Notes under the pieces: generated by a model
What the model was told of the DNA's origin: nothing
Seen by the model: the letters and a program-made list of their open reading frames with translations, nothing else
Database searches by the model: none
Translations under genes and position numbers: made by a program
Virus record (IMG/VR): IMGVR_UViG_3300035698_009116
Span: 1-22,950 of that record
Source of the DNA: a virus
Reading direction: 5' to 3' (one strand)
Length of the DNA: 22,950 nt
Shown here: positions 10,120 through 21,741 of the stretch, piece by piece
Position numbering within the stretch: position 1 is the first letter of the stretch
Layout: every line of letters starts with the position of its first letter

Positions 10120-10127
10120 TTAAATGT

Positions 10128-10348
10128 GGGCATAAGTGGTTCCTAATTATTACTTGAAAATTTACCACTCGCCCCTAATAAGCAAAAAATGAGAGGCATA
10201 AGTAGTTCCTAATAACAATAATGGCGGACAGTTCGCTGTCTGCCATACTTAAAAAATTACTACTCGCCTCTAAAATAGATAATTAATAGTTGGCATAGGC
10301 AGTTCCTATAAAACAAATTCTAAACATTTTATTTACTGCCCGCCACTA
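10128..10348 (+). repeat. three tandem covarying hairpins with a shared internal loop and UCCUA motif
   Basis: Unit 1 is 10128-10174, unit 2 10192-10271, unit 3 about 10287-10348. Each has P1 ending GGC, then ATA, then a 6-bp P2, then TCCTA; on the other side P2', a single C and GCC of P1'. P2 pairs are AGTGGT/ACCACT, AGTAGT/ACTACT and GGCAGT/ACTGCC, changing on both strands together. P1 also covaries (GGGC/GCCC, AGAGGC/GCCTCT, TGGC/GCCA). Loops differ in length; unit 2 holds an 11-bp hairpin with a TTCG loop (10221-10246). The array fills the space between the membrane gene and tRNA 3. No match to a known riboswitch or ribozyme class could be made from memory. Covariation shows the structure is maintained as RNA. 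Confidence 0.8.
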
Positions 10349-10349
10349 G

Positions 10350-10463
10350 GGGGAAGTAGCTCAATTGGCAGAGCACCAGATTTTATACTTTTCGCCTTTA
10401 GCAAAAAAAGTTCCTAAAATATATCAGTTCTGGTGGTTGCAGGTTCGAATCCTGCCTTCCCCA
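10350..10463 (+). tRNA. tRNA gene interrupted by about 41 bases in the anticodon loop; mature anticodon UCA or UUA predicted
   Basis: Everything outside the insert is canonical: acceptor GGGGAAG/CTTCCCC (7 bp), D-stem GCTC/GAGC, anticodon stem CCAGA/TCTGG (10376-10380/10429-10433), variable TGGTT, T-arm GCAGG-TTCGAAT-CCTGC, discriminator A10463. The anticodon loop region is 48 bases (10381-10428) instead of 7. Removing one continuous 41-base piece while keeping U33 leaves anticodon UCA or UUA in every case, which would read stop codons UGA or UAA. Variable and T-arm resemble tRNA-Lys. The insert contains the helical motif shared with the upstream hairpins (10387-10416). No CCA encoded. An insertion in a dead tRNA is the alternative, but all stems are intact. 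Confidence 0.8.
10387..10416 (+). other. circularly permuted copy of the hairpin motif inside the tRNA 3 insert
   Basis: Order P2'-C-P1'-loop-P1-AAA-P2-TCCTA. ACTTTT (10387-10392) pairs with AAAAGT (10406-10411), 6 bp. C10393 lies opposite AAA (10403-10405). GC/GC (10394-10395/10401-10402) closes a 5-base loop. TCCTA (10412-10416) follows P2 directly. P2 length, the 1x3 internal loop, the terminal GT/AC pairs of P2 and the adjacent TCCTA all match the three upstream units, but here P2 rather than P1 is the open end. Confidence 0.7.
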
Positions 10464-10618: not shown

Positions 10619-10876
10619 ATGATATATCAAATTAAAGAGGAAACGATAAATGCTTTAATCTATCTTAAAAGGTGTCCTTTTTGTGGAGAATTACCGAATA
10701 TTTCTTACGTAAATTATGATAGTAAGAAAGAAAGATATTTTATGAATAAGAAAGGATATTGGTCTAATGGGTGGATAATAGAATGTAAAAGTATGGGTTG
10801 TATCTTTAGCAGAACTACTCCTTTCGCCACCATTGACGATGCAGTCAAAAAATGGAATGCGAGAGAGAGCGTTTAA
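10619..10876 (+). CDS. Lar-like zinc-ribbon (restriction alleviation family) protein
   Basis: 85 residues. LKRCPFCGELPNI (about 17-28) and the second pair ECKSMGC (about 59-65) form the zinc ribbon. The end, TIDDAVKKWNARES, is the typical Lar ending (t.eeA...WN.R). Members of this family include the Rac prophage Lar protein, which lessens type I restriction; most are uncharacterised. The three methyltransferases nearby would fit an anti-restriction role, but that is inference. Leader AATTAAATAAAAAATAGAAAA. Confidence 0.75.
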   Translation: MIYQIKEETINALIYLKRCPFCGELPNISYVNYDSKKERYFMNKKGYWSNGWIIECKSMGCIFSRTTPFATIDDAVKKWNARESV

Positions 10877-10960: not shown

Positions 10961-11650
10961 ATGGCAAATTACGGATATTTATATAAAACTATAAATAAAT
11001 ATAATGGAAAATTTTATGTTGGAAAACGAAAAGGAAAATTTGACACAGATTATTATGGAAGTGGAATTGCCATAAAAAATGCTATTAAAAAATATGGAAA
11101 GGATAGTTTTTGTATGCGACTAATTGATTGTGCTGAAACAAGTGGAAGATTGAACCAAATGGAAAAAGAATATATTGCTTATTGTCGGAAGAAATATGGT
11201 AAAGAAAGATTATATAATATATCTGATGGTGGTGATGGTGGGGCAACGATGACAGGTCGTAAACATTCTCGCGAATCAAAAGAAAAAATACGTTTAAGTC
11301 ATTTAGGTCAGCCTTCTGGGATGAAAGGTAAACATTTTTCTAAAGAAGCAAAAGAAAAAAGTAGGAAAAGTCATTTAGGAAAAACTACATTTAATGGCAG
11401 GCACCACACGAAAGAAACAAAACAAAAAATGAGAAAGGCTAAATTGGGCATTAAAAGAAAATCATTTACCAAAGAACATAGAAAAAATATATCTAAAAAT
11501 CATGTAGGCATGAAAGGTAAAAAACATACTCCAGAAACATTAAAAAAATTGAAGAGAATAGCAATAGAAAGATATAAGAACAACCCAAATTGTGGATTTA
11601 GAAAAGGTCATATCCCATGGAATAAAAAAATTAACAAAATAAATATATGA
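10961..11650 (+). CDS. GIY-YIG homing endonuclease with NUMOD3 repeats
   Basis: 229 residues. The nuclease domain (1-90) opens with GYLYKTI and FYVGKRKG, the GIY and YIG positions, and continues to MEKEYIAY and LYNISDGGDGG. After it come about five NUMOD3-type DNA-binding repeats of the form GxxHTxETKxKxRxxxLG (about 95-200), e.g. GRKHSRESKEKIRLSHLG. Such enzymes nick or cut a target and spread their own gene. No intron is visible around it, so it appears free-standing. Its TGA overlaps the next ATG (ATGA, 11647-11650). Confidence 0.85.
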   Translation: MANYGYLYKTINKYNGKFYVGKRKGKFDTDYYGSGIAIKNAIKKYGKDSFCMRLIDCAETSGRLNQMEKEYIAYCRKKYGKERLYNISDGGDGGATMTGRKHSRESKEKIRLSHLGQPSGMKGKHFSKEAKEKSRKSHLGKTTFNGRHHTKETKQKMRKAKLGIKRKSFTKEHRKNISKNHVGMKGKKHTPETLKKLKRIAIERYKNNPNCGFRKGHIPWNKKINKINI

Positions 11651-13623
11651 ATAAAGCAACAATCCGATTATTCAAAGCATTACCAATAACAACGAAAAAG
11701 AAAAAGACTAATAAAGATTTATTGGTAAAAACTATCAAGAAAGGTTTTATATTTTCTCCAGAAGTTATTCATAATTACTCAAATTATGACGAACTGATTA
11801 AGATGGTAGAGGAAGTAATTGGAATAACGGGCGAAAAATTAAATAGCTCTTTCCACAAATCTTGGACCAAGGTAAAAGATGCTAGCATGGAACAATTAGT
11901 GGTTGAGCAATTGGCGCACTATCTTACTACTTATGGCAAAGAGCAACCCGCAGAGTATGTAGAAGAAAAGGAAAAACAATGGGAAGTAGATAATTTGGGT
12001 GGAAAAATAATTGGGTTAGGAGATTTCGAGTCGGATAAGGTTGGTGGTAATTATGTTTATATTCCCAAAGAGAAACTAGAAATTCCAGAGCTCGATATAG
12101 ATGGAATAAGATTAGTGGTCATAAAAGGATATACCAAAAAAGAATTAAAAGAAAAATTATTAAACTTGCTTGGCATGGGAATCGCTTTGGGCGAGGATAC
12201 AATTCAGGATGTATTAGATGTAGCTACTTTTGTTGAGCTAGATGAAAAAGATATTGAGGGAGTTAAGAACAAAGAAGTCAAGGCAGCCCTCTATGATTAT
12301 TTGAATTTATTGCCAGAAAATCCAATTGAATTTTTAAGATTTCTTGTTTATAAGACAACAGACAAAACTCTTTTAATTAAAAGTCGTAGCTTAATAGAAG
12401 AAATTAAAGAAGGCAAGAATGGCATTGTCAAATTACTTAACGAATATGAGAAAAAATATGGCTTGAATAGATTGGCTGAGATATTTTACAGATTTAAGCC
12501 ACTATTCTTAGCCATGAGAACTACCAAGGGGTCAAAGAAGATAATAAATAGGATAAGAAGATTGGCAGTAGCAAACCACAAACCATTACCAGAAGACTAT
12601 CTGAATAGTATTACTGCTAAATTGAAAAAAGGAAAAAAGATAAATAAAGTTGAGTTGGAAAAAGAGCTGGATAAAGTTAATACTTTCAGAAAGATTAGGT
12701 TGGCTTATGCTCTAAAATTCAGAACTAAAGACGCTGAGTCAATCTTATATCGCATACGGAATGGACGAGGATATGCTACTAGCTTTAGTTTTAACGAACA
12801 AAATGCGGCCAAGAGAACATTAGACATTGTGATTGGTTCAATTGTTAAAGATGTTAGTGGGAATGTAAAGGGTAAGAAAATTTATATCCCCGAACATATA
12901 ACATATAGTTTACCAGCTACTGAAAAACAATTCACAGGGCAATTTCCATCAGGAACCTATGTGTCAATTCCTAAAGATATGCTTGTAGGTATTAATTGGG
13001 GAAATGTGAAAAATTATAGCATTGATTTAGATTTATCCTTAATCTCGCCTGAAACAGGAAAGATTGGTTGGGATTCTGCTTATAGAACAGAGGATAGAAG
13101 TATATTATTTTCTGGCGACATAACAGATGCTACGGGAAGAAATGGTGCGACAGAATTGTTCTATATAAAAAAGCAAATTAAAAAAGCTTTTATACTTCTT
13201 GTCAATTACTATAACTTTGATAGCGAAATAGAAGTGCCATTCAAAATAATTGTAGCACAAGAAAAAGCAGATGACTTTAGGGAGAACTATATGGTAAATC
13301 CTAATAACGTTGTGTCTATCGCTAACTCAAAAATAAATCAAAAGGAAACCATATTGGGCTTATTGATTACAACCTCTGATGGTTGTAGATTCTATTTTGC
13401 TGAAACGAATATTGGAAAGTCAATAACTTCTAGTGATGCGGACTTTGTTGAACATAGCAGGAAGTATCTCTTTGACTTTTATGAAGGTGCTATTGGTTTA
13501 AAAGATATTTTAGTAAAAGCTGGCGCTAAAATTGTTGACGATAAAGAAAAGGCTGATATAGATCTTTCGCCAGAAGATTTAGAGAAAGATAGTATTTTGA
13601 ATTTACTTAAAGGTCATGAATAA
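11647..13623 (+). CDS. large protein of unknown function with a TerD-like C-terminal segment
   Basis: 658 residues, the largest gene in the window. The N-terminal 100 residues hold GFIFSPEVIHNYSNYDELI and SFHKSWTKVKDASMEQLVVE followed by HYLTTYG, which look conserved rather than random. The middle (about 200-390) is helical and basic. About 395-560 is beta-rich: TYVSIPKDMLVGINWGNVKN, then SIDLDLSLISPETGKIGWDS, ILFSGDITDATGRNGATELF. The DLDLS...G...SGD.T...GA.E pattern recalls TerD-family calcium-binding domains, but the match is by eye and partial. The C-terminus is acidic. It has no signal peptide or membrane segment. Possible roles in stress or phage defence are speculation. Confidence 0.55.
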   Translation: MNKATIRLFKALPITTKKKKTNKDLLVKTIKKGFIFSPEVIHNYSNYDELIKMVEEVIGITGEKLNSSFHKSWTKVKDASMEQLVVEQLAHYLTTYGKEQPAEYVEEKEKQWEVDNLGGKIIGLGDFESDKVGGNYVYIPKEKLEIPELDIDGIRLVVIKGYTKKELKEKLLNLLGMGIALGEDTIQDVLDVATFVELDEKDIEGVKNKEVKAALYDYLNLLPENPIEFLRFLVYKTTDKTLLIKSRSLIEEIKEGKNGIVKLLNEYEKKYGLNRLAEIFYRFKPLFLAMRTTKGSKKIINRIRRLAVANHKPLPEDYLNSITAKLKKGKKINKVELEKELDKVNTFRKIRLAYALKFRTKDAESILYRIRNGRGYATSFSFNEQNAAKRTLDIVIGSIVKDVSGNVKGKKIYIPEHITYSLPATEKQFTGQFPSGTYVSIPKDMLVGINWGNVKNYSIDLDLSLISPETGKIGWDSAYRTEDRSILFSGDITDATGRNGATELFYIKKQIKKAFILLVNYYNFDSEIEVPFKIIVAQEKADDFRENYMVNPNNVVSIANSKINQKETILGLLITTSDGCRFYFAETNIGKSITSSDADFVEHSRKYLFDFYEGAIGLKDILVKAGAKIVDDKEKADIDLSPEDLEKDSILNLLKGHE

Positions 13624-21569: not shown

Positions 21570-21664
21570 ATCCGCTCAGATTTAAAATCCATTATTTATA
21601 GTGGAGTACGCGAAGATAGGTTATATACGATGATTTATTCTTACGAAACGGAGTCTTGGCGGAT
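21570..21664 (+). ncRNA. structured RNA candidate directly upstream of tRNA-Ala (three-way junction)
   Basis: The closing helix is ATCCGCT-C-AGATTT (21570-21583) with GAGTCT-T-GGCGGAT (21651-21664): 13 pairs with wobbles and one C-T mismatch. Inside are a hairpin TCCATTA-TTTA-TAGTGGA (21588-21605, 7 bp with one G-U) and a second helix CGAAGA/TCTTACG (21611-21616/21639-21645, 6 bp with one bulged A). The element ends 5 bases before the tRNA. Found by eye; no energy calculated. No gene is visible in 21550-21755. Confidence 0.55.
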
Positions 21665-21669
21665 ATAAT

Positions 21670-21741
21670 GGGCTGGCATGTTCCAAGGCGGCGAAAATCT
21701 TTTGCATAGATTTTGGGAGAGTTCGATTCTCTCTCGGTCCA
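21670..21741 (+). tRNA. tRNA-Ala (UGC) with a weak D-arm
   Basis: Acceptor GGGCTGG pairs with TCGGTCC and includes G3:U70, the alanine identity pair, with A21741 as discriminator. The anticodon arm AAAATCT-TTTGCAT-AGATTTT puts TGC at 21703-21705 with T before and A after. The T-arm GAGAG-TTCGATT-CTCTC is canonical. The D-arm is abnormal: only TTC/GAA (3 bp) can form and normal base 26 is missing. No intron. No CCA encoded. Confidence 0.75.

Follow-up and report, generated by a model that had tools for sequence, protein, structure and literature searches.

What is the short hairpin that occurs four times within 300 nt of a viral genome fragment, three times in tandem and once inside a tRNA, and what is it for? 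The window (the whole stretch analysed, a virus record of 22,950 bases) is AT-rich and holds many hairpins. An initial annotation, made from the letters of the window, had described three adjacent hairpins with shared parts and a circularly permuted fourth copy in a tRNA, and had proposed an unknown ribozyme or an RNA that binds a protein and serves in the processing of tRNA introns. All four copies lie where it had placed them, between positions 10,126 and 10,463, and their shared parts were verified:

10126..10176, + strand: motif copy 1, in loop-enclosing order (P1, AUA, P2 AGTGGT, UCCUA, an 18-nt loop, ACCACT, C, P1'); 38.4 bits with motif covariance model R1
10192..10271, + strand: motif copy 2, in loop-enclosing order, P2 AGTAGT/ACTACT, with a 47-nt loop that has its own hairpin; 44.9 bits with R1
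10289..10347, + strand: motif copy 3, in loop-enclosing order, P2 GGCAGT/ACTGCC; 41.1 bits with R1
10350..10382, + strand: 5' part of the interrupted tRNA (Rfam tRNA), to U33, the junction being placed by anticodon-arm analysis
10386..10416, + strand: motif copy 4, in insert (permuted) order in the tRNA (P2' ACTTTT, C, P1 hairpin, AAA, P2 AAAAGT, UCCUA)
10424..10463, + strand: 3' part of the interrupted tRNA, beginning at the wobble base; a correct 33/34 junction would make the anticodon UCA

Copies 1 to 3 each form six of six P2 pairs, place AUA opposite C and carry UCCUA after P2, and their P2 pairs change together, as the annotation had seen. Its statement that copy 4 has the same parts held for UCCUA, P2 and the C, but the internal loop there is AAA rather than AUA and P1 has two pairs only; AAA is a normal variant, present in 29% of motif copies. 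Copy 4 belonged to the training set of the covariance model, and its own model score is therefore not independent. It interrupts, with an insert of ~41 nt, the anticodon loop of an otherwise excellent tRNA (10350-10463; 65.4 bits with the Rfam tRNA model) whose junction is ambiguous by a few nucleotides, and ARAGORN run without introns found no tRNA at these positions. The array region is far better folded than its shuffles (z = -5.8), and the window has 8 occurrences of GTTCCTA where 2.4 are expected, a count reached by 0 of 100 shuffles. Across the window the Rfam gathering score was reached only by this tRNA; at the motif there was no match up to E = 10, the permissive search giving the tRNA and chance snoRNA-type matches only. 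Known RNA families were rejected at both thresholds.

With a 33/34 junction the interrupted tRNA would have the anticodon UCA, and UGA is a rare stop in the window (5 of 37 ORFs examined), all five UGA-ending ORFs having a second stop within 12 codons. UGA recoding as the cause of the UCA anticodon was considered and rejected, because UGA, rare as it is, still serves as a stop. Two further tRNA-like sequences were seen in the window: one at 367-503, missed by ARAGORN and Rfam, has acceptor, D and T arms of good quality and, where a normal anticodon arm would stand, ~85 nt made up of other hairpins that lack UCCUA, and one at 21650-21741 has a clear T arm and an anticodon arm possibly reading UGC, without a matching 5' acceptor strand.

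The initial annotation had let its proposal hang on further covarying copies, and 237 distinct loop-enclosing copies were found in viral contigs. A scan of IMG/VR, whose records are fragments without host names, with the 5' half of the motif alone returned 110 stretches; the downstream ACNNYYCGC was present at 61 of 99 distinct sites, and in 60 of these 61 it pairs 6/6 with its own P2, against 17% for swapped partners, the sites having been found by fixed letters while the agreement of the two variable P2 pairs was left free in the search. Among 73 aligned copies, double changes occur in 11 of 12 pairs (253 double-changed cells versus 80 in shuffles), a signal abolished by sliding the pairing partner; a third helix formed from the loop ends beside P2 was rejected for lack of covariation. 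The structural pattern matched 172 times in 2.48 Mb of fetched loci and 8 times in the same sequences reversed, and four copies in 300 nt are therefore not chance.

The motif spans ~40 nt and comprises P1, a 1x3 internal loop (C/AWA), a 6-bp P2 (RRNNGU/ACNNYY), UCCUA and an unpaired U before the AC. Its near-invariant core in 158 copies reads GC-A(U/A)A-RRNNGU-UCCUA ... U-ACNNYY-C-GC, giving ~15 nearly invariant nucleotides around two internal loops; the U before AC, which was not a search requirement, is found in 97% of them. Up to seven copies stand in tandem (locus L353), and between the window and locus L036 P1 and P2 are kept while the loop diverges. BLAST of the array against named phages gave tRNA matches only; three named phages, the Synechococcus phages S-CRM01 and S-CBWM1 together with Phass-1, carry the motif with the variant UCCUU or UCCUG. 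Strict matches in prokaryote genomes number five, all in metagenome-assembled contigs with the partner gene described below, and the open-licence literature on permuted phage tRNAs, on TerD or TROVE with phage tRNA, and on tandem phage RNA motifs held nothing on the element. As far as Rfam and the open-licence literature show, the RNA element is an undescribed family.

The initial annotation was right about its four copies and missed the wide distribution, the permuted and split tRNAs, and a partner gene that lies downstream of the array:

10619..10876, + strand: small ORF between the array and the partner gene, with a weak Lar-like match below cut-off
10961..11650, + strand: homing endonuclease (NUMOD3; phrog_314), separating the array from the partner gene in this phage
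11647..13623, + strand: partner protein, 658 aa, with a helical N-terminal domain and a C-terminal TerD-like domain

The homing endonuclease is a guest and not part of the system, and the small ORF probably lies outside it as well. Homologues of the 11647-13623 product neighbour the motif at over 50 of the loci fetched. A profile of the partner protein (A1, built from 40 sequences) was found in 30 of 46 motif-bearing records; of the 23 that exceed 45 kb, 21 have it. None of 50 control records taken from the same pattern scans matched the profile. Model R1 likewise matched none of these controls and 26 of 27 records (the 23 large motif-bearing virus records, the window and the three named phages), though scores of copies used in training are not independent. 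In the opposite direction, a protein search of IMG/VR blind to the motif returned 80 loci (180 relatives in all), of which 79 were newly fetched; the motif is present at 73 of these 79, with 185 of 185 copies on the strand of the gene, and in four of the six loci without it the sequence upstream of the gene is almost entirely missing. Copies concentrate upstream of the gene, where 153 were counted, compared with 13 at other positions on its strand and 2 on the opposite strand, and in 49 of 68 loci the last of them ends 7-50 nt before the first matched codon. Because many protein-found contigs overlap the motif-found set, the cleanest test of linkage is given by the three named phages, which were found by the protein alone, and all three also carry the motif; in S-CBWM1 the partner protein is gp175. 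The motif and the partner gene are near-obligately co-inherited.

In three loci (L401, L412 and G018) the partner gene is interrupted by ~0.6-0.9 kb, possibly an intron or intein. A TAG lies in frame within the partner gene of a Desulfobacteraceae MAG contig (L277, 3745-5637) and of Phass-1; since the clade to which Phass-1 is assigned uses code 15, recoded stops may be used by some phages with the system.

Structure prediction for the 658-aa protein gave a model of high confidence (pLDDT 90). Foldseek places the C-terminal part of this predicted model with TerD (3ibz, E 2e-5, probability 1.00), whereas the N-terminal 412 residues had no fold match in the PDB and no sequence match in Pfam, PHROG or PDB. 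With the RING family NCBIfam NF041916, 24 members give matches at E values of 1 or less, the best being 7.9e-9; these fall far short of the family's cut-off and, in the members examined, lie within the TerD region. Structure searches recognised no nuclease or ligase fold, and full-length structural relatives occur in a few phages, including Campylobacter virus IBB35 and Lactobacillus phage LpeD. On sequence and model comparison the partner appears to define an undescribed phage protein family. TROVE/Ro60 homology, which the partner sequence had suggested, was rejected at the sensitivity of the Pfam, profile-profile and fold searches: PF05731 was absent from the 23 records, hhalign of the partner against 8 phage TROVE proteins gave a probability of 0.1, and no Ro60 was among its structural matches.

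Loops of up to 35 nt, which have no tRNA features, are found in 167 of the 237 loop-enclosing copies, and splicing is therefore not the purpose of these. Longer loops enclose circularly permuted tRNAs, GNRA-looped tRNA bodies, D and anticodon arms only, or T arms, with T-loops in 26 copies against 4 in reversed loops. At least 11 copies, judged in sequence only, have the 3' half of a tRNA before its 5' half such that joining restores a tRNA; two of these, from different phages, are Asn(GUU) tRNAs that are both split at 29/30, and the window's own tRNA is not a permuted gene in this sense. In insert order the element either interrupts tRNAs or replaces their D and anticodon arms. tRNAs with an insert still score as full cloverleaves, at about 37-65 bits, much as ordinary phage tRNAs do, some tRNA-borne copies are orthologous between related jumbo phages, and orthologous inserted tRNAs differ in anticodon (UUC, UCC, CUC, AUC).

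Several copies (L018+3608, L019-1488, L037+7611, L050-8242, L322, L323) enclose whole tRNA bodies with a 4-nt anticodon loop, mostly GNRA (GAAA/GCAA), some of which encode CCA. Because such bodies recur in related jumbo phages, they are apparently deliberate, non-decoding tRNAs. At L317+7872, L320-5397, L038+4253, L143 and L145 the element replaces the D and anticodon arms to leave acceptor and T-arm minihelices; several of these phages also carry D and anticodon-arm pieces, and it is possible that the two kinds of piece make up two-piece tRNAs.

In 25 interrupted or permuted tRNAs we used the D and T arms to fix the position of the anticodon arm, ARAGORN over all possible junctions being too permissive. 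Joining across the element regained a 5-bp stem and 7-nt loop in 23 of 25, with junctions at two places, 33/34 (14) and 29/30 (9), although several cases are orthologues and the independent events are fewer than the cases counted. Position 37 is a purine in 23 of 23 rejoined arms, and G36 goes with G37 and other bases at 36 with A37, the sole exception being the window's own tRNA. U33 falls on the expected side in 18 of 23, which is weak evidence given the T-rich flanks, and the distance from P2 to the junction varies (3-9 nt on the 5' side, 2-13 nt on the 3' side). The rejoined arms thus show the pattern of decoding anticodon arms, a pattern that requires a closed loop.

We propose, with a probability of about 0.5, that the element marks RNA for recognition and processing by a phage system in which the adjacent TerD-fused protein is the partner. 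The partner would bind P1 and P2 together with the two asymmetric elements (C/AWA and UCCUA/U). A tRNA-borne element would then be removed and its flanks joined, yielding a contiguous tRNA from an interrupted gene, while removal from a permuted gene would leave a closed or rejoined tRNA; cleavage may be performed by the partner or a recruited nuclease and sealing by a phage or host RNA ligase. In the leader array the same recognition could feed back on the translation or stability of the protein's own mRNA. Removal and joining are favoured because the flanks rejoin to a 5-bp stem and 7-nt loop with the decoding 36/37 pattern. Of the two functions offered by the initial annotation, a protein-binding RNA in tRNA intron processing fits best, given the co-inherited protein, the tRNA inserts and the anticodon arms that joining restores. 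We go no higher than 0.5 because many of the RNAs lack an anticodon, with most copies enclosing short loops free of tRNA features and with GNRA-looped bodies and D plus anticodon-arm pieces that stay non-functional after joining, because the anticodons of orthologous inserted tRNAs drift, because the variable distance from P2 to the junction is unlike a ruler-type enzyme, and because the partner has no recognised catalytic domain. In favour of the proposal, a known type of RNA ligase (RtcB or Rnl2-like) is encoded in 13 of 23 records, a count that has no control rate; that ligases are absent from some records speaks against it.

The main rival is a stable ribonucleoprotein resembling Ro60 and its Y RNAs, in which the motif is a protein-binding handle that is never removed, the enclosed or attached RNA is an effector or gating part, possibly as a tRNA mimic, and the copies in the leader and flanks either give rise to small RNAs by processing or control the gene. 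We consider this unlikely, though a serious alternative, for it would accommodate the non-decoding tRNA bodies and D plus anticodon fragments, the varying anticodons, the loop that diverges between the window and L036 under a conserved P1 and P2, and the arrays that flank the gene on both sides in L066, L195 and S-CRM01. A structured RNA encoded beside a protein gene is itself a feature of Ro60 and Y RNA, and the Ro-like genes known from phages are likewise located within tRNA arrays, where, as here, the adjacent RNAs end in a conserved internal-loop stem and carry tRNA-like domains. However, the partner has no TROVE profile similarity or Ro60 fold match, the motif stem has a sequence signature of its own, Y RNA and YrlA covariance models had no match in the window, and the motif model had none in 8 phage TROVE loci; a handle that is never removed also leaves unexplained the features of positions 33 and 34-38 on the two sides of the interrupted anticodon loop. 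Autoregulation alone, in which the protein binds the leader array to control translation or mRNA decay and the tRNA-borne copies are escaped or parasitic duplicates, would account for the concentration of copies upstream of the gene and the last one ending near the start codon, but we regard it as improbable, since tRNA-borne copies recur in many phages, some as orthologues in related jumbo phages, and hence are kept, and since seven tandem copies exceed the needs of simple repression.

The other function named by the initial annotation, a ribozyme, is more doubtful still; in this reading the element would be a new small RNA that cleaves or splices itself, aided by the protein as an auxiliary factor. 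Like hammerhead, twister and other small self-cleaving ribozymes, the element is compact, permuted and found in phages, unrelated ones among them, and its ~15 nearly invariant nucleotides surround two internal loops; beyond the permuted forms, however, the idea gained no positive support. No Rfam ribozyme family matches, the invariant positions lie in or beside one short helix, a single hairpin core without the junction or pseudoknot typical of known ribozymes, and the near-obligate tie to a protein gene is unneeded by a ribozyme and speaks against one that stands alone. Chance hairpins, terminator remnants or a duplicated tRNA pseudogene, which an AT-rich window full of hairpins might suggest, are refuted by the reversed-sequence counts, the covariation and the empty control records, and have practically no probability left.

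Among known systems, the element behaves like tRNA splicing or a Ro60/Y-RNA particle and by the features tested is a member of neither. It shares with archaeal bulge-helix-bulge introns and the permuted tRNA genes of algae and archaea the small inserts in the anticodon arm, the permuted or split tRNAs and the junctions in or near the anticodon loop. Bulge-helix-bulge motifs, in contrast, have two 3-nt bulges on opposite strands around 4 bp, a geometry absent from the 158-copy consensus, in which two internal loops, the 1x3 loop and UCCUA, lie on one strand around a 6-bp helix; the junctions (33/34 and 29/30) also differ from those of archaeal and algal tRNA genes, and the hosts of the element are phages. 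The group I intron model of Rfam had no match. The partner resembles TerD/Ter stress-response proteins in its C-terminal domain, but there the TerD part is joined to a large helical domain for which no relatives are known, and the fusion is encoded beside a structured RNA.

Two observations were made near phage Ro-like genes. Streptomyces phage Alone3 (L334) has a Ro-like gene and a stand-alone TerD gene in one tRNA array, an echo of the TerD fusion of the partner. In Brevundimonas phage Domovoi (L337, 7166-7421) a match to the Rfam model tmRNA_permuted (60 bits), unannotated in the record, lies between annotated tRNAs near a phage TROVE gene.

Here, we describe an RNA family and a protein family, both apparently undescribed, that are inherited together across many phages, among them cyanophages that have been isolated and can be cultured. 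We tentatively suggest, at somewhat less than even odds, that bacterial viruses own a protein-dependent system for tRNA splicing and circularising, consisting of a ~40-nt signal and a TerD-fused helical protein, which would excise small introns, close permuted tRNAs and perhaps join split pieces, and which would be unrelated to group I introns, bulge-helix-bulge splicing and Ro60. Under either a splicing signal or a Ro60-like particle, interrupted, permuted and split tRNA genes of this kind escape tRNA finders. If the element is a splicing signal, it would represent a new route to tRNAs and a natural RNA-circularising device; if it belongs to a Ro60-like particle, it would represent a second, independent origin of tRNA-mimicking ribonucleoproteins.
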